A stretch of DNA of 37,125 nucleotides from a virus. Positions 19,392-36,201 of the stretch are shown piece by piece. Both the position numbers and the translations under genes were made by a program. The stretch lies in IMG/VR virus record IMGVR_UViG_3300019776_000660, positions 1 through 37,125 of that record. The stretch is one strand, 5' to 3'. Positions within the stretch are counted from its first letter, which is position 1, and every line of letters begins with the position of its first letter. The notes below the pieces were generated by a model that was given only the letters and a program-made list of their open reading frames with translations, had not been told where the DNA came from and did no database searches.

Positions 19392-22300
19392 ATGGCATCA
19401 GACCCGTTCCGCACCGACATCCTTTCAGAGCAAAATCCACTTGCTCCTCAAAACTCACAAAGCAACGAATCGTTTGTTGATGTTTTTGGGTATGGGGTGA
19501 CCCCAAGCACTCCACCTCCCGCGCCACCTCCGAAACCAGAGGACAGACCACTTAACGAGGTCTTCGCCGGTCGCAGGGCAATTGACTTTAACGAACAGGT
19601 CACCGGCAACAACAATCCTTTCGGAGACCAATGGAGTTCCGCAAAAAGCTACCGGCAAGAGGCGAAGGACATCACGGCAATGCTTTCGGATCGCGACAAC
19701 CTTGGTGGGGTTGCCCCAGATGTGGTTGACCTCGCAACTAATTCCTACGACCCGCAAGCATTCAAAGACATGGCGACCAACTGGAGGGCGACCGCTTTCA
19801 TGCTGGATGTGCCGGTTGAGCAACTAAAGGATTCCGATTACACCCTCTACAAAAAACTGGTCGCCGCGAAGCTCGGGAAGAACGCGCCGAAGACCGAGGG
19901 GGACTACCGGCAAATGCTGGCGGATCACTTCAATAACCGGCAAACGACCGAAAAGGCACTCGATGACCTCAACATGATGGCGGTCATGGATGCCCTCAAT
20001 GCGACCAACTACGGGCAAGAATTCCCGATGGTTCGCGACCAAGGGCGGACACTTTCCGAGTGGATGGCAAAATACCCAGAACTCGCCACTCCCGACCGGC
20101 AATGGCTTTTGGCTCGGAATGCCGGTGAGATGTATCGCAACACGCTCGATGACCTCAAGGATGTGCGGCAATTCGCCGCACCCACTTTCAAGACCCTTGT
20201 CGATTTTACACAAGGCAAGGCGACCCAAGACCAATTGGATGACCTCGGGCGCAATCTCCGCGACCTCACTCCAGAGCAATTCACCAAGGTCTCGCAATAT
20301 GTGTCCCTTGCCGCCGAGGCGGGACAGATCGACCGAGGGGCATTCACTCAACTCGCCAAGAACCTCGGGGAATCCCTCTCCCGTGGATTTGATTGGATTC
20401 CTGCCACCGACATTTTCTTGGGGCAAGCCGAAGCGGCATACCGACTCAAAGCAGTCGAGAAGGATGATGTATGGGTTCCCGTTGGATCAGAATCCCTTCC
20501 TGCCGGTTCTTACCAGAATCCTCGCACGGCGCAGGAACTACCAAAATACCTCCAGATGGCATCGATGGGGAACCCTGACAAAGGCTACGAGGAACCACTC
20601 CAAGGCAATTGGAGGAAGGCGACTCCCGAGGAAAAAGAACTCATCCGCCAGAATGCCGAGGAAGGCATGAAAACGATGAAGATGGTTCGCAAGCTACGGA
20701 ACCTTGCCAAGACCGGCGTTGATCCCATCAAGCCACTTGCACAAGGCGGTCTCATCGGGGCGGTCGAGCGTGGCGCGTATGGGCTTGCCGGTAGCATTCC
20801 TCTCATGGGGGCGGTTGCCGTGAACCCTTTCTTTGGTGTGTTGGCATACCAACAAAACGAACTCGACCGAATCCTCCTCGAAAACGAGGACATGGATTTG
20901 GGCGCGGCATCGGCCCTCGCTCTTGTTGAAGGTGGCATGAATGCCGTGATCGACCGATTCCAGATTTCGTCCCTTGCAGGAAAGTCCAAAATCTTTGGCG
21001 GGGTTCTTAAAGGTATGCAAAAAGGCGGAGTCGCCAATTATCTAAAGCGGGTTGGCGTAATCCAGACCGAACAATTCCTACAAGAGGGGGCGCAAGACTT
21101 GATTGCGCCGGTTGTTGAAACGATTGCCGCCTCGCTTCGCAAAGATATGCCCGACAAGGATTTCATGGCAGAACTCGGGAAATGGGGAGAGACCCGCCCC
21201 GAGGTTTTCTTTGCCGTCCTTCCTCTCGCCCTCATCGGCGGCGGGTTTGCCTCGACCGGCGACCTCAAGAATGTGAACACCGAGGTCACCCGCGAACGCT
21301 TGCGGGGAGCAGGAATCTCCGATGAAAAAATCGATTTCATCCTGTCCTCCGAGACCCGAGCCGAGATGGATGAACGCATCCAAGAGGCATGGCAGTCCCG
21401 CACCGAGGAGGACAAGGCGAAGGGGTTGGAATACTACAACGAGCAACTCGGGCAGTTAAGACAAAACCCGAATGACCATCGACTTTCATTAGAAAGCAAA
21501 GCAGACGGCACTCCCGAGTGGGTGGTGACGGATTACAAGGGCAATGAGGTTGGAAGGTTCGCGGATGGCGATGCGGCACTTGAAATCGTGTCGCAAAACA
21601 CCGCCGCAAACATCGAAAAAGACCGCCTCACAATTGTGGAGGCTTTTAACTTTGCGTCCAAAAAAATTCTGAACAATCCCAATGTTGTTCTCGATGAACC
21701 ATCGCTTTCACTAAAGCAAGCGATGGATGAAATGAAAGTCACAGGTGACGAGGCAAGACTTCAGAATTTGTTTAACCGAATCAAATACGGAGACCTTGAA
21801 GGGAAAGACCCTAACAAAATTTGGATTCTTGGAGAGACCACCATTGAGCAAATGAAGGACGGCATCTACAGGGCGGTAATTAAAATGCGAGAAAACTCCT
21901 CGCCGCGAGATGCTCTGGAGGAAATCAACCACGGGTTTTTCAAGACCGCCGTGGCAAACGGGGTCTACACTTTCGACCAATACAAATCTTGGTTGGAGCA
22001 GACCGAAAAAGCTACAGGAAGAACGCTCAAGCGTGATTCCGAAATGGAGATCATCGAATCTTTGGCGCAAGTAGCGGAAGACTATGTCATGGGTCGAGTA
22101 GACGACACTATGATGCCAATGTCACTTGTCGGCTACATCAAGAGCATGATTGAAATCTTCAAGGAGGCACTCCTTCGATTCCTCAAAATGGACGAGGCAT
22201 TCAAGACCGGCGCAATTGACGCCGACTTCCAGACCGCCCTTGAGCAATCCCTCGGCATCGATCCACAGGTTCGACTTGAGCGCATCAGCGACCAGACCGC

Positions 22301-25300
22301 CGCCTCTGTGGAAACAAATCCCACAACCACACAATTACCGGCGTATTCCATCAAAGTCCAAACAACCGCCGCAAACATCCTTGCAGATAATTTGGGCGTT
22401 CCAAAAATGATTCCAAAAGAATATGTTGGACGGCAGTTTATTCCAATTGAGGCAGACCTTACTGCTGGCGGCGGATGGTTTACTCAAAAACCCGCACAAG
22501 GCGGCCCCGCATGGTCAGTTGACCCATTGAACTTTAAAAAAGGGGCGGCATGGGCATCCGCAAATGATGGGTTTTGGACTGGAAAATTAAATTTAGCGAA
22601 AGAGTCTGGCGCAATTTACATAGGGAAAGATGGGCGCGAAAAATTTTTGGTTGGAACATATGCAATGTTGCAAACCTCCCATGTTTCAAATCCAACCATT
22701 GCTGGAGAGAAACTTTCTGAAGTTGCTCGTTATGTAAAAGAAGGACGCATTTCCAACGAACAGGAGGCGGCACTTTCACAACTAATACGAGATGCGGCTC
22801 AAAGCCTTTACGATGCAAGTCTTGCGGAAAAAACAAAATACGAAAATGACAAATCCAGCAAAAACTATGAACGGGCGCGACAAGCAAACACCAAGGCAAG
22901 CGCACTAATCAATTTCCCCACCACATTCACGGCACAGCAATTGGAGCAATACATTGCAGACCTTTCTTTTGACCAAAGAGCATTTATTGCAACGCAACTT
23001 TCAACTGCCCAAGCAGAAATAATTGGCGCACCGCCGATGGGTCAAATTACCCGCGCCACTTTGGACGAGTCTTTTGCCGGAACCTCCCCATTGTCGTTAA
23101 TTTCTTTACTGGAAATCGATGTTAAAAGGCTTGAAGAGGGGATTGCAAACAAGACACTTACGGCAAAAGACTTTGGTATTGTTTCCCATAATAGCTATAG
23201 CTCGATTGCGCCAGGAAAAATTGTAACATTGTTTAGAACGCCAATTCCTTACGCATTGGCAATGCCAGATATTCGGAAGGGGTTGTTGGATTGGGATACC
23301 AAGAAAAAATATGTCAACAATCACGGGTATTTCCTTAAAGGCAGAATCCCAGTTGGATTACCAAGAACGCAAACCATTAGCACAAAAATGCGGGATTCTT
23401 GGGTAAAAACTCAAACCAACCTTCGCCCCAATCAAGCCAAAGCAATCGTTGCCGCTTTAAATCAAAAATGGACTCGTTTTGAAAGAGTGAATCAAGCCGG
23501 TCTGGTCGAATTCCCTCGCGCCCTTGTCAACAATGATGCCGCCGTCACTTTAACAAAGTACACCTTTGAAGAGGTAAAAGCCATGATGAAAGCGGGAACC
23601 ATGAAGGTTTACCGGCTCGGCGAAATGGATGTGTGGTTTGCCCTCAAACGACTCGGAGAAGACGAAAAGGATTTCGGAGACCCAAGCAAAGATTGGTCGA
23701 TTGTCTCGGTGGTAAACAACGAAAAGGGCGCAGCTGGAATGCTCCCTCTTATTATGTCCAAAGCACTTGCCGAGGGCGGAACCATTCTCGACTGCTATGC
23801 AGTCAAAAGCGCAAAATATCCAGACGGGTTATTGCCGACCCTCTATGCCAGAAGTGGGTTTGAGGTAACCGCCACCCTTGCGTTTGATCCACAATACCAC
23901 ACAGAGGCAGGTAAACTCCTCGACTTGGAACAAGTGTGGCATAGTCAAAAATGGGATGGCGTCGAAAAACCTTCTGTGGTATACATGAAGTGGAATCCCG
24001 AACTTCATGCAAAAATTGGAACCAACGCCAGAGACACAAACTCACGATCCGTCATCGGTGAATCTCGATCTGCAAAATCGGATGAGGGCGGCATGGCCGA
24101 AGGATCGACTGAAATCTCTGGGGGACTCTCAAGCGGATCGCTTGTCAGCATGGGTAGCGAGGGACAGGGCGAGCAAGGGGGACGAGTATCTGTCAGTTCC
24201 AGTCCTACAGGGGATGCTGGAGATGCTCGAAACATATTACCCCGAGGAATCGAGCAGATCGTTGCCGATTTAAGCAAACTCAATCAATACCAACTTCAAG
24301 CCTTGGGGTTGACCAAGGAAGAGGTCAAATCGGCGGTTGCAATTTACAACTCGGCAGATTCGGTTTCTTACTCTGTTCGCGAAGCATCTCCACTTCTTCA
24401 ACAATACAAAGGGTGGAAGAGTGTCGAAGTAACCAAAGAAGGTCGCGCATTTTCTCCAATCGTGCGGGATTTGTTGCAACGCCGGTCGAACGGAGAAGAC
24501 ATTCCTCGGGAAGTTATCGAGGAAGCAATCAACGAGCATTTCCCCGCGCAACTCGCGCCGGTTCCTCAATCTGAAAAAGACCTTCCCACACAGGAAGAGG
24601 TGGACAATGCAACGGCATCAAAACCGAATAAACGAATTTCTGCTTCCGAAATACCAGAACGGCAACCTGTCAACATCCGACAAGATGTTCCTGCATGGAC
24701 AGACTACGGGGTGGGAGTTGTTGTGATCGACACACCAGAAGGAAAAGCCTATTCCGCCGCCGCCGCCATCGACAATCCAAGGTTTGTGCTGAACGAAAAA
24801 AAGTCTCTGGCAATAGCACTCGGAGGGGCAAAAGGCCCACACATTGTTATCAAAGGAGATTGGGCAGAAGATCAATCTATGCCATTGGATTTGGATAGTT
24901 GGACTCAAGTTGGATACAATCCCGACCGGCATAGCTACTACTACGACCGATCTACAGGTCAGCAAATCACGGGAGCATCCAAAGCATACCAGATAGGCAA
25001 TGTGGTTTTTGTAACTGACCCACAATACGGGGATGGGAAGATTTCCGATCTCTCCTACAGCATCCGAGAAAACAACGATGTGGATCGCATCAAATTCTTA
25101 TCTCAAGAACTGGACGCTATGTATGAGGCGGGAGGAACCAACCCAAGAATTGGAACCTACGAAAGCGAATTGGAATCCCTTTTCCAGAAAATCGAATCCC
25201 AACAACAGGAGATGGAGGATGAGTCTTTTGAGGTGGATGAGGCGGTCGATTACAAGGATTCGGATTACGACCCCACCGGCATGATGCTTGAATCCGTTGA

Positions 25301-28300
25301 GGATTATTTGACAGGACGAGTGGACAACCAAGACCAAACGCTTTCCGAACACATCCGAGGGGTTGTTGCGTCAGAAGGGTCAATGAACCTCATCCCAAAC
25401 ATCACGGATGCACAAATCGAAGAAGGGGCAATGGAGTTGTACAACAACCGCCTTGCCCTCCGAAATCAACTTGCACCCGACCTCTCTACCCCGTTCTACA
25501 GCATCCGCGAACAAGGGGAAATCGACCGAGTCGCATCCGCCGTGGATGCCGTCAAACGCGGCCCCGAGGGTCGCCTTGCCGTTTACCAGAGGGCGAAGCT
25601 GAAGTTTCTGCAACTAATTCAGGACAACAAAGCGGCACTCGATGCTATCAAGGCGGCGGCGGTTTCTGACCCCGCACCGGCAATCGAGAAACTGGAGGAT
25701 GATCGAGCCGGTCGCCTTGCAGACATTGAGACCGAGGAGATCGCCGAGGTGCAAAGCGCACTCCAAGACAATGCCGTGCAATTCGCCTCCCGCATCGAGA
25801 ATGCCATCGCTCCCGAGGACAAGTCGCAACTTAACGCCGATGCCAAGGATCGGGCAAAGATTCTCGAAAAAGGTATCCGCGAAAAATACGCCGAGCGGAA
25901 GAAGAAGGTGGAGCAGGAAATTTCCGCTGAGAAGCGCAAGGTTTCCGAGGTTTCCGAGGCGCGTAGGGTCGCATCCAATGCGGTATACAGGGAGAAGGTG
26001 AAATACGAAAAACTTGCCCAAGCAGTCGCAGAACTCGACGGGTTGCTCAAGGTGCTTCCAAGAGAGGTCATCGGGAAAGTTGGCGGGTTCGCAACCCTTA
26101 CCAAGATTGGCGGCGGTGAGAAAGCCCTTGCCGACTTCTTTGTAAAACGGGTCGAGATGGTGGACGCTCAATTGGAACGATACCTCATCAAGGAATACGA
26201 CACCGAACTCAACCGAATTTTTGAACGCGCCAAACCGAAAAAAGCAAAAGCCGGTGAAAAGCCAAAAGGCATCGGAGCGGAAATCCAAAACCTTTTTGGA
26301 ATCTTAAAAGAAGCACGGGATTTTGATGCGCTTGAGGTGTCTGCACACCTCGCGGGAATCGATGACAAGTTGGCAACCGGCGACCTGTCAGCAGAAGTGG
26401 AGGCGGCACTCAAACAGGAGGCGGCACTTGTCACTCTTGTTGGAGATTGGCGGAATGCAGATTCAGATCGCCGAGCAACCGCCGTGGTTGAACTTCGCGA
26501 AACTTGGGCAAAAGGATTCGCCGATTATCGAGCGAGGGAAATTGATAAAAGACAGAAGAGGGAAGCGGGGCGGATGGAAGCGATCCAATCGACCGGCAAA
26601 ACTGGCGATATCAATTTGCGAAAAGAGAAATCGATAAAAGACAACGGCCTCGGAACGAAATTCCGAAATGCCCTCTTCAACCTTGTTTCTTGGGATCAAT
26701 TCACCGGCTTGCTGTTTGGAAACAATTCGGAAGTTTCCAACCGGCTTTCTGATTTGCAACGCCGAGCCGACAACCGAAAAGAGGATTCGATTCAACAAAA
26801 ATCCGAGGCAATTGAAAACCTTTTCACAAAACTTGCCGGTGGGAAAAAACTCGATGGCGAGGCACTCCGTTGGCAGATGTCGCAACCAAGCATGGTTGTG
26901 AATGGTTTCCCGCTTTCGGAACTGGAGGCACTCACAGCAACGATGATGTGGATGCAGGAGGACGGCAAAAAGCACATGGAGGGGCGTTTTGACGAGAACG
27001 GCAATGTCATTTCCAAGTGGTCATACAAACAAGATTTCATCGATCAGATCGAAGGAGCATTGTCTGAAGAAGCAAAAGAAGTCCGCCAGTTTCTGTTGGA
27101 TAATTACGATGCAGAATACTACCGAATCAACTCGGTTTACCGGCAACTAAACGGGATCGACCTCCCGCGAATTCAGTTCTACTCGCCCTTGATTGTTGCG
27201 CCACAGCAAGCCCCAATGGGAATGGTCAACGACCCAGTAACAAATGCCGCTGTATCAGCATCTTCTGTAAGTCCTGGTTCTTTGCGTACTCGCAACAGCA
27301 TGGCAATCGCCGAACCTCAATTCCGAGATGCCCTTCAGACATTCATCGCCCATACCAAGCAAATGGAGCATTGGATCGCTTACGCGCCGGTTCTTTCAGA
27401 GATTAACGGCATCTTGCGAAACAGAGATGTGCAAGATGCCATTGAAGAAAAAGGAGGCAAGGAGGCAAAAGTTGTTTTGAACCTCTGGCTCGATTTCTTC
27501 GCGCAAGGGGGCAACAGGGATGCCAGCAACCAACTCGACCTATCGAAACAGATCACCGGCATGGCGGGGCGAGGAGCGCAAATGGCACTTGTCGGTCGCC
27601 TCGGGACTCTGCTGATTCAAAGCACACAACTTGGCGCGGCAATCGCCGAGATGCCCACAGGGGCTTATGCGGTGCGGTTTTCCAAATTACTTGCCGGTCG
27701 CCTCGGTTGGGGAGAGGCACTTTCTTCGCCATACATCCAACGCCGCATCCGCGAGATGCCGCCAATTGTGCAACAGGCATTGGAGGGTCTCGCCTCGACA
27801 CAACCCAACCGACTCAAATACGAGGTTGCAAGAATCGGAAGACTCATTGCTGGAACTGATGGTCTAATGACGGCGGGAACTTTTGCCATCGTATTCGATT
27901 ACCATTTTACCCAAGCAAAAAAGATGGGGTTCTCCGACCAGAATGCGCGAGAGTATGCAACGACAATTGCAGAACGGGCAACCGACCGCCTCGCACAACC
28001 TACACGCATGGGGGCGCGTTCGATTTTTGAACTTTCCCAGACCAATGCCTACGCAAAAGTTGGTTGGGCATTCGCCTCGGAAGCGAGGAAAAACCTTGCT
28101 CTCGCGGCATATGCCGTTGCCAATAAATCCAAAGGTGATGCCACCAGAACTATTGCCGGTCTTGTTATTTTGAACACGCTTTTTGGAGCATTGATTCGGA
28201 ACGCATGGAAAGATGCGCGAGACGAGGAGGATGATGAGTGGTTCGATGACCGCAACTGGTCTGTCAAGCGCATGATACTTGCCGCCGCGACCGAGCCATT

Positions 28301-28595
28301 TTACGGGTTGCCATTCATCGGATCGGCAATTGAAGAAGGAGCGTATGTTGCCGCAGGGGAATACAACATGATGGGATCAGTCCTTTCACCGACCCGTGCG
28401 GTTCGCGCCATGCTCAAATTGCCAGACACATTAAACGGAGAGCGCGATGTGGAAGACATGATGAAAGACCTTCAAGCGATCATTTCGTTCATGGGTCTCT
28501 TCAACCACAATCTTGCCGCAACGACATCGCTTTCCAATATGGCGGTGGATGCTTTTACATTCGGCAAAAACACCAAAGACAATTTGGAAAAATAA
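19392..28595 (+). CDS. Giant internal virion / polyvalent ejection protein, 3067 residues
   Basis: This gene takes a quarter of the genome and follows the gp14- and gp15-like genes, where the gp16-type ejection protein belongs. The N-terminus is proline-rich, then helical. Around residues 455-500 there is a hydrophobic glycine/alanine stretch. Domain-like blocks are separated by the short linker YSIK/YSVRE/YSIRE (near residues 985, 1658, 1887, 2035), as in phage polyvalent proteins. Residues about 1400-1520 look faintly GNAT-like (GAAGMLPLIMSKALAEGG; LLPTLYARSGFEV). About 1835-1885 carries the WTQVGYNPDRHSYYYDR motif of such proteins. About 2035-2430 is coiled coil. The C-terminal 500 residues include hydrophobic helices. 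It is probably ejected to form a trans-envelope conduit carrying effector domains. Confidence 0.75.
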   Translation: MASDPFRTDILSEQNPLAPQNSQSNESFVDVFGYGVTPSTPPPAPPPKPEDRPLNEVFAGRRAIDFNEQVTGNNNPFGDQWSSAKSYRQEAKDITAMLSDRDNLGGVAPDVVDLATNSYDPQAFKDMATNWRATAFMLDVPVEQLKDSDYTLYKKLVAAKLGKNAPKTEGDYRQMLADHFNNRQTTEKALDDLNMMAVMDALNATNYGQEFPMVRDQGRTLSEWMAKYPELATPDRQWLLARNAGEMYRNTLDDLKDVRQFAAPTFKTLVDFTQGKATQDQLDDLGRNLRDLTPEQFTKVSQYVSLAAEAGQIDRGAFTQLAKNLGESLSRGFDWIPATDIFLGQAEAAYRLKAVEKDDVWVPVGSESLPAGSYQNPRTAQELPKYLQMASMGNPDKGYEEPLQGNWRKATPEEKELIRQNAEEGMKTMKMVRKLRNLAKTGVDPIKPLAQGGLIGAVERGAYGLAGSIPLMGAVAVNPFFGVLAYQQNELDRILLENEDMDLGAASALALVEGGMNAVIDRFQISSLAGKSKIFGGVLKGMQKGGVANYLKRVGVIQTEQFLQEGAQDLIAPVVETIAASLRKDMPDKDFMAELGKWGETRPEVFFAVLPLALIGGGFASTGDLKNVNTEVTRERLRGAGISDEKIDFILSSETRAEMDERIQEAWQSRTEEDKAKGLEYYNEQLGQLRQNPNDHRLSLESKADGTPEWVVTDYKGNEVGRFADGDAALEIVSQNTAANIEKDRLTIVEAFNFASKKILNNPNVVLDEPSLSLKQAMDEMKVTGDEARLQNLFNRIKYGDLEGKDPNKIWILGETTIEQMKDGIYRAVIKMRENSSPRDALEEINHGFFKTAVANGVYTFDQYKSWLEQTEKATGRTLKRDSEMEIIESLAQVAEDYVMGRVDDTMMPMSLVGYIKSMIEIFKEALLRFLKMDEAFKTGAIDADFQTALEQSLGIDPQVRLERISDQTAASVETNPTTTQLPAYSIKVQTTAANILADNLGVPKMIPKEYVGRQFIPIEADLTAGGGWFTQKPAQGGPAWSVDPLNFKKGAAWASANDGFWTGKLNLAKESGAIYIGKDGREKFLVGTYAMLQTSHVSNPTIAGEKLSEVARYVKEGRISNEQEAALSQLIRDAAQSLYDASLAEKTKYENDKSSKNYERARQANTKASALINFPTTFTAQQLEQYIADLSFDQRAFIATQLSTAQAEIIGAPPMGQITRATLDESFAGTSPLSLISLLEIDVKRLEEGIANKTLTAKDFGIVSHNSYSSIAPGKIVTLFRTPIPYALAMPDIRKGLLDWDTKKKYVNNHGYFLKGRIPVGLPRTQTISTKMRDSWVKTQTNLRPNQAKAIVAALNQKWTRFERVNQAGLVEFPRALVNNDAAVTLTKYTFEEVKAMMKAGTMKVYRLGEMDVWFALKRLGEDEKDFGDPSKDWSIVSVVNNEKGAAGMLPLIMSKALAEGGTILDCYAVKSAKYPDGLLPTLYARSGFEVTATLAFDPQYHTEAGKLLDLEQVWHSQKWDGVEKPSVVYMKWNPELHAKIGTNARDTNSRSVIGESRSAKSDEGGMAEGSTEISGGLSSGSLVSMGSEGQGEQGGRVSVSSSPTGDAGDARNILPRGIEQIVADLSKLNQYQLQALGLTKEEVKSAVAIYNSADSVSYSVREASPLLQQYKGWKSVEVTKEGRAFSPIVRDLLQRRSNGEDIPREVIEEAINEHFPAQLAPVPQSEKDLPTQEEVDNATASKPNKRISASEIPERQPVNIRQDVPAWTDYGVGVVVIDTPEGKAYSAAAAIDNPRFVLNEKKSLAIALGGAKGPHIVIKGDWAEDQSMPLDLDSWTQVGYNPDRHSYYYDRSTGQQITGASKAYQIGNVVFVTDPQYGDGKISDLSYSIRENNDVDRIKFLSQELDAMYEAGGTNPRIGTYESELESLFQKIESQQQEMEDESFEVDEAVDYKDSDYDPTGMMLESVEDYLTGRVDNQDQTLSEHIRGVVASEGSMNLIPNITDAQIEEGAMELYNNRLALRNQLAPDLSTPFYSIREQGEIDRVASAVDAVKRGPEGRLAVYQRAKLKFLQLIQDNKAALDAIKAAAVSDPAPAIEKLEDDRAGRLADIETEEIAEVQSALQDNAVQFASRIENAIAPEDKSQLNADAKDRAKILEKGIREKYAERKKKVEQEISAEKRKVSEVSEARRVASNAVYREKVKYEKLAQAVAELDGLLKVLPREVIGKVGGFATLTKIGGGEKALADFFVKRVEMVDAQLERYLIKEYDTELNRIFERAKPKKAKAGEKPKGIGAEIQNLFGILKEARDFDALEVSAHLAGIDDKLATGDLSAEVEAALKQEAALVTLVGDWRNADSDRRATAVVELRETWAKGFADYRAREIDKRQKREAGRMEAIQSTGKTGDINLRKEKSIKDNGLGTKFRNALFNLVSWDQFTGLLFGNNSEVSNRLSDLQRRADNRKEDSIQQKSEAIENLFTKLAGGKKLDGEALRWQMSQPSMVVNGFPLSELEALTATMMWMQEDGKKHMEGRFDENGNVISKWSYKQDFIDQIEGALSEEAKEVRQFLLDNYDAEYYRINSVYRQLNGIDLPRIQFYSPLIVAPQQAPMGMVNDPVTNAAVSASSVSPGSLRTRNSMAIAEPQFRDALQTFIAHTKQMEHWIAYAPVLSEINGILRNRDVQDAIEEKGGKEAKVVLNLWLDFFAQGGNRDASNQLDLSKQITGMAGRGAQMALVGRLGTLLIQSTQLGAAIAEMPTGAYAVRFSKLLAGRLGWGEALSSPYIQRRIREMPPIVQQALEGLASTQPNRLKYEVARIGRLIAGTDGLMTAGTFAIVFDYHFTQAKKMGFSDQNAREYATTIAERATDRLAQPTRMGARSIFELSQTNAYAKVGWAFASEARKNLALAAYAVANKSKGDATRTIAGLVILNTLFGALIRNAWKDARDEEDDEWFDDRNWSVKRMILAAATEPFYGLPFIGSAIEEGAYVAAGEYNMMGSVLSPTRAVRAMLKLPDTLNGERDVEDMMKDLQAIISFMGLFNHNLAATTSLSNMAVDAFTFGKNTKDNLEK
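26335..26350 (-). promoter_or_regulatory. Palindromic motif GGTGTGCAnACACC, site 5
   Basis: AGGTGTCTGCACACCT (core 26336-26349) has perfect 6-bp arms; on the - strand the core reads GGTGTGCAGACACC. It lies inside the giant gene (E-V-S-A-H-L). Confidence 0.55.
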
Positions 28596-28600
28596 CAATT

Positions 28601-28628
28601 GCACACACCTTCCATTGTGATAGGTGTG
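28601..28628 (+). promoter_or_regulatory. Inverted repeat between the giant gene and tail fibre
   Basis: CACACCT (28604-28610) and AGGTGTG (28622-28628) can pair across an 11-base loop within the 43-base gap. The right arm is also the left half of palindrome site 6, so the gap may hold two overlapping half-site pairs. No T-run follows, so it is not a standard terminator. Confidence 0.45.
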
Positions 28629-28637
28629 CATACACCC
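28622..28637 (+). promoter_or_regulatory. Palindromic motif GGTGTGCAnACACC, site 6
   Basis: AGGTGTGCATACACCC (core 28623-28636) ends one base before the tail-fibre ATG at 28639. It is the exact reverse complement of sites 3 and 4. Binding here would block both transcription and, as RNA, the start site. Confidence 0.65.
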
Positions 28638-28638
28638 T

Positions 28639-30159
28639 ATGGCTATAGCAACAACAGGATCACAGGTCGATTACACGGGGACAAACACGGCGAACCAAGT
28701 TTGCCCTTTCCCCTACATTTTCTTTGACAACACCGACCTCGTTGTCACCAAGCTATCAAGCACCAATGTATTGACCACCTTGGTGCTGAACACCGACTAC
28801 TCGGTAACCGGCGCGGGAGTTGCTTCTGGGGGTAGCGTCACTATTTTTGCGGCAACACCGACCAGCACAAAAATCACCATCGTCCGAGACCTTCCAGAGA
28901 CTCAACTTGTTTCACTCACGACCGGAGACCGATTGCCAGCAAGCACTCTGGAAAGGGCTTTCGACAAACTAACCATGCTGGTGCAGGAGTTGAGCCGAGG
29001 GCTTAACAAGGCACTTCGGTTTACCGATGCGGTTACTACGCAGCCTGCGATCACGCCTTTGCCATCATCAGTCCTCGGGACAAATGCGGCAAATCAGTTG
29101 GCTTTTACTTCAACAACCGGCGCAACAGGAACCCCTCCGTATTTTCTTGCCGCAACCGCCGCCGGTCAACCGGCTACATTTCAAACTTTGCCGCTTATTA
29201 CAACAGACCGAATTGCCGATTCCTCGGTCACCTCTGCAAAAATTGCCGATGCCTCGGTAACTACTTCAAAAATCGGAGGCAACCCCGCAAGTGGTCAATA
29301 TGTTCTGGGAACGACTGCTGGCGTCGTCACTTGGCAACTTCCATCAACCGCATCGGTTGCGGATTTTTCCATAACGACTTCCAAATTGGACAATGCCGCC
29401 GTCACCACAGAAAAGTTGGCAAACAATAGCGTCAACGGAAATAAGATTCTTGATGCGAATATCACAAACGCCAAATTGCAAAATGGTTGCGTCGATGCAA
29501 ATAAATTAGCAACCGGCGCGGTAACATCTGACAAAATTTTAGACGGCGCAGTAATCAATTCCAAAATTGCCTCTGGGGTGGATGCGGCAAAATTGACCAC
29601 CGGCACATTGCCTATTGACAGGATTGCCGATGCCAGCATCACGGCGGCAAAATTGCAACCCGCGATCATCACGGGCAGGGAATTAAGCGCAGGAGCGCAA
29701 ATCGCGCAGAAATTTGTGACCTCTTCTCCATATGCTGTCACAAATTTAAATTTCCCAGATGCTACATATTCTGGCATAGTGGATACCACGATTGGATTGC
29801 AAATCCTTGCCTTACCGGCGCACACCGCACTTGCGGGGTCTTTAATCTATTTGAGATTTAGCGCAAAATTTCATGCGTCAGTCGCCAATCTGAATTACGG
29901 GTTGGCGATCTTCGCGGGAACTACGCTCGTTTCCATTCAACGCTACCTTTCAAGTGCGACGGCAACCGCCCCAAATGTTGAATTCATTGAAGGGTTTTAT
30001 ACTGCTCCAACAACTCCCGCTCCAATTATTTATTCAGTTAGAATGTGGAAGTATAACGATACAACTGCCACCACTAATTTGATGCTGAATGGAAACACCA
30101 AATCTGATTTCAACGGCAACGCAAGGGCAATTCTCTATCTAACAGAAACCAAAGTATGA
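28639..30159 (+). CDS. Tail fibre protein, T7-like N-terminus with repeat shaft
   Basis: 506 residues from the ATG at 28639; a GTG at 28624 is in frame but falls in the palindrome. Residues 1-125 (FPYIFFDNTDLVVTKLSS, NTDYSVTGAG, LPETQLVSLTTGDRLPA, LERAFDKLTMLVQELSR) match the virion-attachment domain of T7-like fibres. Residues about 190-350 are short repeats of the form D-x-S-[IV]-T-x-x-K-[IL], a trimeric shaft. The last 150 residues are strand-rich and may be the tip domain. It would attach to the nozzle and recognise the host or carry the adhesins encoded next. Confidence 0.85.
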   Translation: MAIATTGSQVDYTGTNTANQVCPFPYIFFDNTDLVVTKLSSTNVLTTLVLNTDYSVTGAGVASGGSVTIFAATPTSTKITIVRDLPETQLVSLTTGDRLPASTLERAFDKLTMLVQELSRGLNKALRFTDAVTTQPAITPLPSSVLGTNAANQLAFTSTTGATGTPPYFLAATAAGQPATFQTLPLITTDRIADSSVTSAKIADASVTTSKIGGNPASGQYVLGTTAGVVTWQLPSTASVADFSITTSKLDNAAVTTEKLANNSVNGNKILDANITNAKLQNGCVDANKLATGAVTSDKILDGAVINSKIASGVDAAKLTTGTLPIDRIADASITAAKLQPAIITGRELSAGAQIAQKFVTSSPYAVTNLNFPDATYSGIVDTTIGLQILALPAHTALAGSLIYLRFSAKFHASVANLNYGLAIFAGTTLVSIQRYLSSATATAPNVEFIEGFYTAPTTPAPIIYSVRMWKYNDTTATTNLMLNGNTKSDFNGNARAILYLTETKV

Positions 30160-30346: not shown

Positions 30347-30484
30347 ATGAAAATCGAAACATATTTCACAGGAACCAAAAGCGTAATCATCTCCACGCCA
30401 GATCAGTCTGGTGAATTAGATGACACCACAATGGTTGCCCCAGAACCAGAACCTCAACCAGAACCTCAACCCAAACCCAAGTAA
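30347..30484 (+). CDS. Short protein with P-E-P-Q repeat tail
   Basis: 45 residues. A small strand-like start (IETYFTGTKSVIISTP) leads to an acidic stretch and a tail of PEPEPQPEPQPKPK. Such extended tails act as spacers. The gene begins two bases after the previous stop. Function is unknown. Confidence 0.5.
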   Translation: MKIETYFTGTKSVIISTPDQSGELDDTTMVAPEPEPQPEPQPKPK

Positions 30485-30485
30485 A

Positions 30486-30782
30486 ATGGCAATCTACGAC
30501 GAGAATTCCGCTCCCGTGGCGGTGGCATCTACTTTGTCGATCACCTCGGCAAATACTGCCCAACAGATATTTACCGATCAAAAACGAAGCTATTTGCTGG
30601 TTCAAAACAATTCGGACACCGATATGTGGCTCGGCATTGGCGTGATCCCTTCCGTTGGCACAGGTATCCGACTCTTTGCAAACGGCGGTGGGTATGTTGC
30701 TGAAAGTGATTTCATCCCAAGTGGGGCGGTGCGGATCATCTGCTCGGCGGCGGGGAAGGCATTCTACGCTTTGGAGGGCTAA
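30486..30782 (+). CDS. Small beta-rich virion-type protein
   Basis: 98 residues from the ATG at 30486. The pattern KRSYLLVQNNSDTDMWLGIGVIPSVGTGIRLFANGGGYV is one common in small phage proteins near tail-fibre or head genes. It reads as a single beta-sandwich (strand, N-N-S-D turn, strand), ending AAGKAFYALEG. Likely a small structural protein; the exact location in the particle is not known from sequence. Confidence 0.6.
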   Translation: MAIYDENSAPVAVASTLSITSANTAQQIFTDQKRSYLLVQNNSDTDMWLGIGVIPSVGTGIRLFANGGGYVAESDFIPSGAVRIICSAAGKAFYALEG

Positions 30783-30784
30783 CT

Positions 30785-31078
30785 ATGGGATTTATTGTTC
30801 CACCTTCATCTGGCGGGGGCGGCGGCGGGGGAGTGACTGCTGTAACGGCATCTGCTCCGTTAGCTTCATCGGGAGGCACATCGCCACAAATCTCGATTCC
30901 TACGGCATCCTCGACGGCAAGCGGGGCATTATCTTCGACCGATTGGTCTGCATTCAACAACAAGGTTGGGAAAACGACTTCTGATACCACGCCGGTCAAC
31001 ACGATCCGCGCCATCACTCAAGCCGAATACGATGCCATTGTGACCAAAGACGCAAACACGATTTACTTCATCAAATAA
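30785..31078 (+). CDS. Small fibre-associated protein with glycine run
   Basis: 97 residues. The N-terminus MGFIVPPSS is followed by seven glycines, then VTAVTASAPLASSGGTSPQISI and GALSSTDWSAFNNK. The latter two motifs recur in fibres and baseplate-linked proteins of many phages. The C-terminus ITQAEYDAIVTKDANTIYFIK is another common fibre end. It is probably a short adaptor or collar piece for the adhesin encoded two bases later. Confidence 0.6.
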   Translation: MGFIVPPSSGGGGGGGVTAVTASAPLASSGGTSPQISIPTASSTASGALSSTDWSAFNNKVGKTTSDTTPVNTIRAITQAEYDAIVTKDANTIYFIK

Positions 31079-31079
31079 C

Positions 31080-32396
31080 ATGGCGGACTACATAAAAGCC
31101 TACCTTGGAGCGACTCCATTGTTTGCCACAGATACCAAGTGGACACGCTCCACCGATTGGTTGCCATTGCCATCCGTTCCCGCAGATGGGTTTGTTGGCA
31201 TTCATGCGGTCTTTGAAAGCGGCACTAATTACTGCGCGATCTTGATGCGGACAGATACTGGTACATACACAATCGATTGGGGCGATGGAAGTGCCATAGA
31301 AACCGCGACTTCTAACACTATCGTCAACCACAATTTTTCGTGGGCAGGGACAAGTTCATCAACAACAACATCTCAAGGCTACCGGCAAGCCATTGTCAAA
31401 GTTACTCCTGCAACTGGATCGAAATTCATATATTGTCAGATCAGCAACAAGGTGTCCACTCCGACAATTGCCCAGCAGTATAGTTCTGGGTGGCTTGACA
31501 TCGTTTTTAATTTGCCAAATTTGACGGCAACAGGAGGATGCTCGTTGCTGGTAGGCGGGGGATCGGTGAGGCATTCCTACCTCGAAAGGGTCACGATAAA
31601 TGCGTGGGGTGCAATGAATGCTTGCACAAATATGTTTGCTGATTGCAATGCGTTGCAATCCATTAACTCCTCGGCGTGGAACATGGCGGCAATCAATAGT
31701 CTGCAATCGATGTTTCAAAATTGCTGGGCATTGCAATACATAGATGGTTCAACTTGGAACACTTCCGCAGTTACTACCATGTTGAATTTTGCAAGGGAGT
31801 GCAAATCTTTGGTTCAAATCAATTGTTCAAATTGGAATCTTTTAAGCAATACATCTATTCGTTTTGCATTCTATAACTGCATATCGTTGCAGTTTTTAGA
31901 TGTTACAAATTGGAATACCAGCAATGTCATTACAACTGAAAACGCTTTTGTCAACTGCTCCAGTTTAGAAAAGCTCAATGTCCGAAATTGGAACATGGCA
32001 AAAAATGCCAACGCAAATTCCATGTTTGCCGGTTGCACCAATTTGCAAAATCTGGACATTTCACTCTGGAGCATTCCTCTGCTGACGATCGCTTCTTCCA
32101 TGTTCTCTGGATGCACGGCACTTGAAAAATTGGAAACCTGCAATTTTTCGGCTTGCACGAACATGACATCGTTTGCGGCGGGGTGCAATTCCCTTAAATC
32201 CGTAACACTCACAGGAATCAATACGAGTGTGGATTTCTCCAATTGTTACTTGAGCGGGACGGCATTGGATATTTTGTATGGGAATCTGTCTGCGACCGGT
32301 ACAGGAAAAACCTGCAACCAGACCGGCAATTTCGGGACGGCATCCGACACGCCTTCCATAGCAACTGCCAAAGGATGGACTTTGTCCACCCCGTAA
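31080..32396 (+). CDS. BspA/DUF285-type leucine-rich-repeat adhesin with PKD-like segment
   Basis: 438 residues. Residues about 55-100 contain TGTYTIDWGDGSAIETA, the core of a PKD-like strand pair. Residues about 175-385 hold eight imperfect repeats of 25-26 residues with the pattern MF-x-x-C-x-x-L-x-x-[IL]-[DN]-x-x-x-W-N, as in BspA-like/DUF285 leucine-rich repeats of bacterial surface proteins. Many cysteines line one face. The C-terminus ends in a G/T/S-rich cap. Its setting between fibre and esterase genes indicates a virion adhesin that binds a host surface molecule. Confidence 0.8.
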   Translation: MADYIKAYLGATPLFATDTKWTRSTDWLPLPSVPADGFVGIHAVFESGTNYCAILMRTDTGTYTIDWGDGSAIETATSNTIVNHNFSWAGTSSSTTTSQGYRQAIVKVTPATGSKFIYCQISNKVSTPTIAQQYSSGWLDIVFNLPNLTATGGCSLLVGGGSVRHSYLERVTINAWGAMNACTNMFADCNALQSINSSAWNMAAINSLQSMFQNCWALQYIDGSTWNTSAVTTMLNFARECKSLVQINCSNWNLLSNTSIRFAFYNCISLQFLDVTNWNTSNVITTENAFVNCSSLEKLNVRNWNMAKNANANSMFAGCTNLQNLDISLWSIPLLTIASSMFSGCTALEKLETCNFSACTNMTSFAAGCNSLKSVTLTGINTSVDFSNCYLSGTALDILYGNLSATGTGKTCNQTGNFGTASDTPSIATAKGWTLSTP

Positions 32397-32397
32397 T

Positions 32398-33840
32398 ATG
32401 CCAATTGCTTTTGGTTCTTCACTCCTATCTCCGTCAACAGCAAACCTCGATCAATACTCGACAAAGCGACTTCCAAAGACAGGCACGAACGGAGAAGCTG
32501 TTTTCTGCGCGGACTCGAAAGGATTCGGGCAAGGGGGTCTGGTGTATCGATCTGCTGGATCGTGGAAACAGATCGACAACTCAAACATCGTTCCAAGTGC
32601 GGCAAGCCTGTTCGATCAGTCATCGGGGATGTGCGATTTCAATCCAACCGGCACTCCTTTCAATGTTCAGATTCTTTCCAATTCTGTCACAGGCGGCATC
32701 CGAACGATCCAACTTTACATAGACATCACGATATTCGGTTACACTTTTCCGATTTATTGTCTTTACGCTTACCCAGACGGGCAAACAAATCTCCCGTGCA
32801 TCTTCTTTTCCGATGGGTGGCTTTCGACGGCAAACCCTCACACCGATTACAATTCTGATGGTTATGCAACTTTCTCTTACGATTACGGAGGCAACCCTGT
32901 AGGACAATCTGGATACCCTCCCTATTGGACGCAATATCCTACTGCTCTGGCTTACGGGAATCACCGCACAACTGCTGGGGGATACCGCATCAAAAACACC
33001 AATGATTCGACGGGACAACAAGTCACAGACCCAAAGCAAACCGACGAATACCTTTGGAACTGCATCATGCGGCGAGCGTTTGAATACATGATGACGCGCC
33101 CAGAAATCAACACGGCAAAAGTTGGCGCATGGGGATATTCTTGGGGGGGGACTATGGTATGGAACTTTGCAACCGAGGCGCGACTGAAAGCAATCGTGTC
33201 GTTCTTTGGGTGCGGCAATCTTGTATACTGGAGAGATCGGAGCGTTTGGAAGTACAACAATCCGTATGTAGAGCCTACGATGCAGACCGGCGAGTATTCG
33301 TTTCTCAATGCGCCGTCCGCCGAGGCTTACGCCAAAGATTGTGTGGTTCCCTTTTTGTGGATCAACGGAACCTCCGAATACCACGGGCAACAAGATCGCG
33401 GAGAAGACAATTTCTTACGGATGCCGAGTGGAATCCCGTGGGATTTTTCGCACGAACCAAACAAGGCGCACGACATTACAATCAATGTGGGCAACGCGAA
33501 ATTGTGGATCGATAAATATGTGAAAGGCACGGCAATTGTTTGGCCGAAGAAACCATCTGCCTGGTTGTCACTCAATGCAGGAACTCCGCAATTCAATGTG
33601 CGACCAGACACAACGATTGCAATTTCAAGCGTGCAATTCTGGAAAGCAGAAAAAGAACCCAACCCAACTGCCCGTATCTGGTCTGCGGTCACGACAACCA
33701 ACAACGGAGTGACTTGGACAGGATCGATGCCGGTCTCAAATCCAGCCGACTACCTTTTTGCTTTTGCCAATATCGTTTATTCAAACGGGGTAGTTACTTC
33801 CACATTCCTCAACGCCGCGATCCCATCCAAAATGACATGA
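32398..33840 (+). CDS. Alpha/beta-hydrolase (esterase-like), probable tail-associated depolymerising enzyme
   Basis: 480 residues. Residues 1-75 look like a virion-attachment region (KRLPKTGTNGEAVFC). A hydrolase core follows: strands LPCIFFSDGW and YATFSYDYGG, the nucleophile elbow GAWGYSWGGTMVW (S248), the strand VPFLWINGT, and H358 in NKAHDITI near the end of the fold. The order resembles acetyl-xylan-esterase/dienelactone-hydrolase-type enzymes. The last 90 residues are a separate strand-rich domain. It probably removes ester groups from host surface polysaccharide. There is no signal peptide. A run of eight G lies in the codons of the elbow. Confidence 0.75.
   Translation: MPIAFGSSLLSPSTANLDQYSTKRLPKTGTNGEAVFCADSKGFGQGGLVYRSAGSWKQIDNSNIVPSAASLFDQSSGMCDFNPTGTPFNVQILSNSVTGGIRTIQLYIDITIFGYTFPIYCLYAYPDGQTNLPCIFFSDGWLSTANPHTDYNSDGYATFSYDYGGNPVGQSGYPPYWTQYPTALAYGNHRTTAGGYRIKNTNDSTGQQVTDPKQTDEYLWNCIMRRAFEYMMTRPEINTAKVGAWGYSWGGTMVWNFATEARLKAIVSFFGCGNLVYWRDRSVWKYNNPYVEPTMQTGEYSFLNAPSAEAYAKDCVVPFLWINGTSEYHGQQDRGEDNFLRMPSGIPWDFSHEPNKAHDITINVGNAKLWIDKYVKGTAIVWPKKPSAWLSLNAGTPQFNVRPDTTIAISSVQFWKAEKEPNPTARIWSAVTTTNNGVTWTGSMPVSNPADYLFAFANIVYSNGVVTSTFLNAAIPSKMT
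33143..33150 (+). repeat. G8 homopolymer in the hydrolase active-site elbow
   Basis: Eight consecutive G encode the W-G-G after the nucleophile serine. Slippage by one would truncate the enzyme. Confidence 0.8.
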
Positions 33841-34121
33841 ATGACGCAATAATCCGAGCCACCGACTATGCCGCCCAACAATCCGACCGATGGATTTTTG
33901 TCGCACTCCTCATCATTGGGGTTTCATTTTCAACATTTCTATTTCGCTACTTTGCAAATGAAGTCCGCATCATTCGCGGGGAGATGAAGCACCAAAATGA
34001 CGAGTTCATCGCACATCTCAAAAACGCAAACAAAGAGATCACCGAGTTGGTCAAAACCGCACACGATACCATTGCCAGAAACTCTGTGGTCATGGAACGA
34101 GTCGAAAGGAAACTTCAATGA
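33837..34121 (+). CDS. Membrane-anchored coiled-coil protein, putative inner spanin or holin
   Basis: 94 residues from the ATG at 33837 (ATGA overlap). Residues about 19-40 (WIFVALLIIGVSFSTFLFRYF) form one membrane helix, and the remainder is a charged coiled coil ending VMERVERKLQ. This is the shape of an i-spanin (Rz-like), and the following overlapping gene encodes a small lipoprotein, the usual o-spanin partner. A class III holin is the alternative. No direct motif decides. Confidence 0.55.
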   Translation: MNDAIIRATDYAAQQSDRWIFVALLIIGVSFSTFLFRYFANEVRIIRGEMKHQNDEFIAHLKNANKEITELVKTAHDTIARNSVVMERVERKLQ

Positions 34122-34987: not shown

Positions 34988-35013
34988 TGTCACCAAGCAC
35001 CTATTTGGTGACA
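34988..35013 (+). repeat. Inverted repeat TGTCACCAA / TTGGTGACA near attP
   Basis: Perfect 9-bp arms (34988-34996, 35005-35013) flank an 8-base centre. The right arm with its flank reads AAAGTGTCACCAA on the - strand and recurs at 35173-35184, so these are likely arm-type binding sites of the integrase or Xis. Confidence 0.7.
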
Positions 35014-35030
35014 CTTTACAGATAAGAAAG

Positions 35031-35070
35031 GTGGGTTCGAATCCCACCCTCTCCGCTCTTTTTTAGGGTT
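35031..35070 (+). other. attP core: tRNA-Ser 3'-end mimic
   Basis: GTGGG-TTCGAAT-CCCAC (35031-35047) is a perfect T-arm. It is followed by CCTCTCC (acceptor 3' strand), G (discriminator, as in tRNA-Ser) and then CTC instead of CCA, and a T-rich end. There is no 5' tRNA half upstream, so this is not a complete tRNA. Next to an integrase it is best read as the phage half of a tRNA attachment site that restores the host gene on integration. The exact crossover cannot be seen. Confidence 0.8.
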
Positions 35071-35199: not shown

Positions 35200-36201
35200 A
35201 TGAAAACGCCCAAGTATCGACTGCTTGCTCCCAAGTTCGACGCCTCCAAAGACCGATGGGTTGTCGATGTGCCGCAATCCCTCCACGGGAAACGATCCCG
35301 CCGGTTTTTCCGAACCGAGGCGGACGCCCTGCGCGCCTCGGGGGAGATTGCCATTGCTCACTCCCTCGGCTCAAAGAAGACCGGCAAGCGGGGAGGGGAT
35401 ACGATCCGCGATCTCGCCGCCGAGTTCCTTGCCGAAAAAAAAATCGAGGTTGCTGAAGACACCCACCGGCAATTGGCGTGGGGAATCAAAATGCTTGTGG
35501 AACGATTCGGTAACAACGCACCGGCGGACTTGAATGAAGCGATCACCAAACGATGGGTCGCCGGTTTGGAACTCTCGACCCGTGGACGATTCAATGTCTT
35601 TGCGGTTTGCCGGTCACTCTACAGGTGGCACGGGGTTCGCGCCGTGTGCCGCGACAACCCATTCTTTACAGCACCGGCGCGTGACGATGGCAGGGTCGAG
35701 ATTCTTACGCCCGACCAGATGGCGATCCTGCTCAAGACCGAGTTCCCGCAATGGTTCCGAACCTACCTTGTGTGCGGCGGGTTTGCCGGTCTCCGTTCCA
35801 TTGAAATGACCCGCATGGATCACGCTTCGTTTGATTGGCAGTACAAGGAAATCCTCGTCCGCAAATCCGACTCCAAGCAAGGGGACGCCGCGAAACCCAG
35901 GAGCATCACCATCCAACCGGCATTTGAAAGGCACATGGCGCAAGACCTCGATGGAGACTTGCTCGCCGGTTCCAGCAAAAAAAGATTCGCGAACTGCTTC
36001 AAACAAGTTTGCGCCCTCCTCGGCATTGAGGAATGGCTCAAGAACTCGCTTCGCCACTCGTTCGCAAGCTACCACCTCGCGCATTTCCGCGATGCCGCGA
36101 AGACCTCGTTTGAGATGGGGCATGAGTCACCAAAATTACTCTACAAAACCTATGCAAATTTGGTCTCTCGGCGGGATGCGGAAAAGTGGTGGAATTTGTG
36201 A
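35200..36201 (+). CDS. int: Tyrosine recombinase (integrase)
   Basis: 333 residues. An N-terminal arm-binding region (1-60) and a helical SAM-like core-binding domain (about 66-160) precede the catalytic domain. Visible residues are R199 (GGFAGLRSIE), K222, R285 (LRHSFASY), H308 (MGHES) and the nucleophile Y318 (YKTYANL). The box II histidine is replaced: N282-S-L-R instead of H-x-x-R. This variant with RHSFASYHLA is one I associate with Verrucomicrobiota integrases. It catalyses integration at the adjacent attP. The start is supported by position six bases after the arm sites; no clear ribosome site is seen. Confidence 0.9.
   Translation: MKTPKYRLLAPKFDASKDRWVVDVPQSLHGKRSRRFFRTEADALRASGEIAIAHSLGSKKTGKRGGDTIRDLAAEFLAEKKIEVAEDTHRQLAWGIKMLVERFGNNAPADLNEAITKRWVAGLELSTRGRFNVFAVCRSLYRWHGVRAVCRDNPFFTAPARDDGRVEILTPDQMAILLKTEFPQWFRTYLVCGGFAGLRSIEMTRMDHASFDWQYKEILVRKSDSKQGDAAKPRSITIQPAFERHMAQDLDGDLLAGSSKKRFANCFKQVCALLGIEEWLKNSLRHSFASYHLAHFRDAAKTSFEMGHESPKLLYKTYANLVSRRDAEKWWNL

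Follow-up and report, generated by a model that had tools for sequence, protein, structure and literature searches.

In both immunity and bacterial adhesion, arrays of leucine-rich repeats (LRRs) serve as a standard scaffold for evolvable binding, exemplified by variable lymphocyte receptors and internalins. The BspA/DUF285 (PF03382) and TIGR02167 PARCEL surface proteins of bacteria and protists resemble the product of the phage gene described here (positions 31080–32396) in their 26-residue unit and in the solenoid class of the structures 4fs7 and 4gt6. Unlike these proteins, it has neither a signal peptide nor an anchor and lies in a tail operon, and it combines the repeats with a phage-specific N-domain, a proposed docking hairpin and a C-cap. 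Among phages, annotated DUF285 proteins include "tail protein I" of Klebsiella phage ST16-OXA48phi5.4, Pseudomonas phage OBP_145 and Sphingomonas phage PAU gp103. These also carry DUF285-type arrays, at least one of them in an annotated tail protein, but have other architectures that lack the DWL.LP/FVGL/DWGDG N-domain. The same holds for ORF287 of Vibrio phage pir03, annotated as a "BspA family leucine-rich repeat surface protein" (PMC7765460). Phage LRR proteins having thus been annotated before, the category is not new; beyond genome annotations, we found no DUF285 or LRR phage receptor-binding protein in the literature searched.

The best structural match (E = 1.6 × 10−23) was to "Bacterial surface protein 26-residue repeat" proteins of uncultured Caudovirales (BFVD A0A6J5NAQ5 and others), which probably belong to the same family, although A0A6J5NAQ5 differs in length (697 residues). 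In Mycobacterium, Gordonia, Paracoccus, Rhizobium and Lactobacillus phages, PF24243 proteins and the minor tail proteins that follow them show the same two-gene order and the same YLG-type hairpin start, but the distal module is glycine-rich, an SGNH/GDSL hydrolase, BNR-annotated or Mtd-like rather than LRR. The family, its two-gene platform and its mode of variation appear to be undescribed in the literature searched.

The window, by which we mean the entire stretch of 37,125 nucleotides analysed, is an IMG/VR virus record derived from environmental DNA and belongs to a podovirus with a phrog_332 head-tail adaptor, the tail tubular proteins phrog_394 and phrog_376, RecT and an exonuclease. 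Genes in the tail region run in the order fibre, small ORF, 120-aa protein, 97-aa PF24243 protein, LRR protein, hydrolase, holin-like protein and a lysis-region gene, with the following features:

28624–30159, plus strand: tail fibre with a T7 gp17-type N-terminus (PHROG 1640 tail protein, E = 1.2 × 10−34)
30420–30782, plus strand: 120-aa protein forming the conserved left border of the variable slot (74% identity to L017:7146-7445)
30785–31078, plus strand: 97-aa tail protein ending in PF24243 Phage_tail_C (E = 4.5 × 10−14), the proposed docking partner
31080–32396, plus strand: putative LRR tail adhesin gene, an ORF of 438 aa (Pfam DUF285 E = 6 × 10−25, TIGR02167 E = 8 × 10−25)
31092–31124, plus strand: proposed N-terminal docking hairpin IKAYLGATPLF, residues 5–15 (YLG/PF24243 pairing; similar motif in cultured-phage tail proteins)
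31140–31574, plus strand: N-terminal beta-domain, residues 21–165, of the R..DW..LP...FVG..AVF...DWGDG family (alignments A1 and A2, predicted strands 37–149, at least 188 viral contigs)
31275–31292, plus strand: DWGDGS motif, residues 66–71 (WGDG invariant across the family alignments)
31581–32234, plus strand: predicted LRR solenoid, residues 168–385, seven 26-aa units plus half-units (periodicity, predicted strands, LRR-only model)
32235–32393, plus strand: family-conserved C-terminal cap ending IATAKGWTLSTP (alignments A1 and A5; helix 393–402 predicted)
32398–33840, plus strand: alpha/beta hydrolase with a GYSWGG nucleophile elbow, in the same slot (Pfam DLH, E = 5 × 10−7)
33837–34121, plus strand: 94-aa membrane-type protein (holin/spanin-like), conserved right flank (79% identity to L017:8717-9064)

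The gp17-like fibre and the PF24243 protein bear out the tail-fibre cluster in which a preliminary description, made from the sequence alone, had placed the gene. Its ATG falls 1 nt past the stop of the PF24243 gene, the gap to the co-directional hydrolase gene is likewise 1 nt, and the gene is situated in a tail-tip/fibre module beside its proposed docking partner, as would be expected of an adhesin gene. An ORF of 3067 aa (19392–28595) lies between internal virion-type genes and the fibre; it matched no PHROG, nor any Pfam model above its cut-off, and a sister phage encodes a long protein at the equivalent position.

On its profile scores, the LRR protein is a member of the DUF285/TIGR02167 family, exceeding both cut-offs (DUF285, Pfam, 87.8 bits against 25, E = 6 × 10−25; TIGR02167, NCBIfam, 86.1 bits against 30, E = 7.9 × 10−25), DUF285-type repeats having been proposed in the preliminary description. 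The tally given there of eight repeats of about 25 residues was fair as a count, since seven full units are accompanied by half-units at the ends, but the period is 26 residues, with a mean BLOSUM score of 1.15 at lag 26 compared to a best value of 0.09 in 5,000 shuffles. The full units start at residues 184, 210, 236, 262, 288, 314 and 340 (span 184–365) and are flanked by an N-terminal half-unit (about 168–183) and a C-terminal partial unit (366 to about 385). The unit consensus is roughly MF..C..L..[IL]....W[NS]; the "MF" of the motif noted earlier occurs in only four of the seven units. Mean identity between units is 38% and the array contains no long DNA repeats shared by its units, arguing that it was not recently expanded in this phage. 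With respect to the palindromes of PARCEL elements, the inverted repeats observed are weak (16–24 nt, 70–88% complementary) and do not recur per unit.

Structure prediction, which had been suggested as a check, yielded an LRR solenoid for the C-terminal part of the protein. The AlphaFold model of the full protein, computed with 12 aligned family members (pLDDT 84, pTM 0.84), places one short strand in each 26-residue unit (194, 220, 246, 272 and 298), and the LRR-only model reached a pLDDT of 92.4 and a pTM of 0.90. When the LRR-only model was compared to the PDB with Foldseek, nearly all hits with E < 0.001 among the matches listed were LRR proteins, including BspA-type 4gt6 and internalins, but their TM-scores were low (0.2–0.46), leaving the curvature of the solenoid uncertain. 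The full two-domain model, in contrast, gave no PDB match below 0.001. The family profile matched the BspA-type chain 4fs7 with E = 3 × 10−25. The segment in front of the repeats had been called PKD-like: the DWGDGS motif is present, but the gene product has no Pfam match to the PKD domain (PF00801) at E ≤ 0.1, so the label relies on the motif and the predicted beta-structure only.

At the N-terminus, YLG-type starts pair with upstream PF24243-type endings in seven of eight members, compared to 0 of the 84 others (Fisher p = 9 × 10−10, a descriptive value only, because the members compared are not independent of one another and the pattern was defined with the data already in view). Likewise, for named or complete phages with a PF24243-type C-terminal motif, the next gene opens with a similar hairpin in seven of eight cases; the hairpin-starting genes are Tiger gp5, Waits gp8, Chidiebere gp30, Pyei1 p63, RHph_I3_11 105, CL2_26 and cr56_1 gp51, those of Tiger, CL2 and cr56_1 being loose matches only. 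Of seven upstream proteins tested against the PF24243 Pfam model, five scored above its cut-off, and the pairing was seen in mycobacteriophage, Gordonia, Paracoccus, Rhizobium, Lactobacillus and crAss phages. Several of the second genes are annotated as minor tail protein, host range and adsorption protein (CL2_26), or Mtd-like tail protein, and cr56_1 gp51, annotated as similar to major tropism determinant, adjoins a reverse transcriptase. Given this pairing, found also in cultured phages, the most likely role of the LRR protein is that of an exchangeable adhesin docked at the tail tip.

A viral-contig search with the full LRR protein returned no matches, because exact peptide patterns are too specific; a degenerate DNA pattern for FVGxxAVF then recovered full-length homologues sharing the N-domain (R..DW..LP...FVGL.AVF...DWGDG), the array and the C-cap, with the cap motif ..ATAKGWTV. 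A profile search placed the family in at least 188 IMG/VR viral contigs, 80 of which were retained, and in 13 bacterial-genome contigs. The initial view that such LRRs are unusual as phage receptor-binding proteins is right for named phages, where 56 of 50,697 records match the LRR protein and none significantly matches the N-domain, but applies less to environmental phages. We identified 111 N-domain ORFs (97 non-redundant), including 78 distinct proteins with 4 to 30 LRR motifs by a strict pattern; units are mostly 24 residues long, the 26-residue type being found in the present protein and a few others. In some proteins (L041, L090, L124) DUF285-type motifs are missing and the N-domain is instead joined to other phage domains.

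The genomic setting of the family is that of tail genes, and it recurs across many unrelated phages. Across 59 loci, including the present one, the immediate upstream neighbours included nine collagen-like, six PF24243, two tail collar and one Mtd_N protein, tail-fibre types dominated among their PHROGs, and the gap to the upstream gene was at most 20 nt in 82 of 92 family cases. Members occur in podovirus and lambda-like settings; in a Zoogloea MAG, one (L127) is found in a lambda-like prophage, where gpK, gpI, gpJ and a collar-type fibre precede it and an integrase lies close by. Many members are followed by a small conserved gene that has the motif YPVDGWYWF (24 of 97 by motif; for example L127:9379-9786, L123:3272-3484 and L064:7795-8007). 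One phage contig carries two paralogous LRR adhesin genes in tandem (L103:9860-12570).

Comparison of repeat number among relatives, also proposed at the outset, revealed whole-unit differences. The L156 and L158 proteins are identical save for exactly one 24-residue unit, a difference that is possibly an assembly artefact, given near-identical units and a DNA identity above 99% on one side. Four units separate L144 from L148; their DNA is about 84% identical, indicating different phages, and units in each resemble those of their own protein more than their counterparts in the other. Repeat-unit variation, as anticipated, is supported by the relatives, whereas the array in the window shows no recent exchange. 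Between L156 and L163, dS is 0.04 in the N-domain and 0.35–0.46 in the array and cap (array values being subject to register errors), a pattern consistent with a distal part swapped by recombination. A search for positive selection in the array was negative, with dN/dS below 1 in every computable region. Relatives display the variable distal part and conserved attachment part expected of an adhesin, with unit number changing behind near-identical N-domains.

A similar modularity is seen at the level of the locus. The relative L003/L017, whose tail tubular protein B is 68% identical, has retained the 120-aa protein (74% identity), the holin-like protein (79%) and the genes that come after it (80% and 74%), but its slot holds unrelated proteins of 321 and 121 aa and the LRR gene is absent. 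The gene is also absent from a second relative (L018), so that among the relatives of this podovirus examined the longest have no LRR gene. This comparison shows that the whole slot, consisting of the 97-aa protein, the LRR protein and the hydrolase, is exchanged between sister phages. The hydrolase, for which we found no relatives among named phages, the PDB or the loci collected for the family, is perhaps a surface-modifying partner or surface esterase acting with the adhesin.

Together, these data make it likely, in our judgement, that the LRR protein is a distal tail adhesin composed of a docking hairpin, a beta-domain spacer and an LRR binding surface, diversified through its units and by swapping. 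We infer that it is present in the virion, docks physically and binds a receptor. In such a mechanism, the YLG hairpin would attach the protein to the PF24243 "tail tip" domain that ends the upstream-encoded protein, the DWGDG beta-domain would act as a spacer, and the exposed DUF285-type solenoid would bind a host-surface ligand that is probably a primary or accessory receptor. In relatives, diversity would arise as repeat units are gained, lost and homogenised, and as the array and its cap are swapped behind a conserved N-domain. More broadly, we see about an even chance of a widespread class of tail adhesins, diversified by repeat-unit recombination, in which a two-gene tail-tip platform (PF24243 plus YLG hairpin) accepts several interchangeable distal modules, the DUF285 solenoid among them; such a class would parallel, on the basis of repeats, the receptor-binding proteins that are DGR-driven or depolymerase-based.

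Several observations speak against the adhesin reading: positive selection was not seen, the window's own array bears no trace of recent unit exchange, and the longest relatives examined have no LRR gene. The gp17-like fibre encoded by the same phage, moreover, could be the main receptor-binding protein, and it raises the alternative that the LRR protein decorates the virion, concentrating the phage near hosts through weak, broad adhesion to polysaccharide, mucus or particles while the fibre supplies specificity. An Ig/PKD-like beta-domain joined to repeats and the collagen-like neighbours in relatives would suit such a role. We nevertheless regard it as unlikely, as the PF24243-YLG slot of named phages holds proteins annotated as minor tail, host-range or Mtd-like, and unit-number changes and slot exchange fit specificity.

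The phage is probably temperate, given an integrase-like gene at 35200–36201 (weak Pfam match, E = 0.00025) that adjoins a tRNA 3′ end at 35012–35051 (GGTTCGAATCC T-arm, serine-like), probably the attP. Bacterial BspA/DUF285 proteins being surface proteins, the LRR protein could in principle be displayed on the lysogen, where it might, for instance, prevent superinfection or promote host adhesion. We consider such lysogenic conversion quite improbable: a BspA-type secretion signal or membrane anchor was not found, as the 438-aa protein lacks any hydrophobic or signal-peptide-like stretch (its highest mean hydropathy over 19 residues is 1.38) and has no visible lipobox at its N-terminus; the gene sits within the late tail operon with 1-nt gaps; a promoter of its own is unsupported, promoter-like sites not being in excess; and the N-terminal docking motif is common to tail proteins. 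A tail assembly factor or chaperone outside the mature particle is very improbable, for although small accessory genes beside fibres are often chaperones and the small YPVDGW gene is found behind many members, known tail chaperones do not resemble a solenoid of variable length with conserved ends, and fused forms exist on other phage proteins (L041, L090).

A large environmental family varying by whole units would be a natural system for studying how recombination alters phage host range. Should the PF24243-YLG pairing prove to be a genuine docking interface, it would provide a simple rule to find the terminal adhesin in many uncultivated phages. As a separate observation, the gp17-like fibre of a relative (L017:4695-6911) carries an unusual distal module, an RCC1-type beta-propeller behind the fibre N-terminus (Pfam RCC1-like, E = 3 × 10−49).
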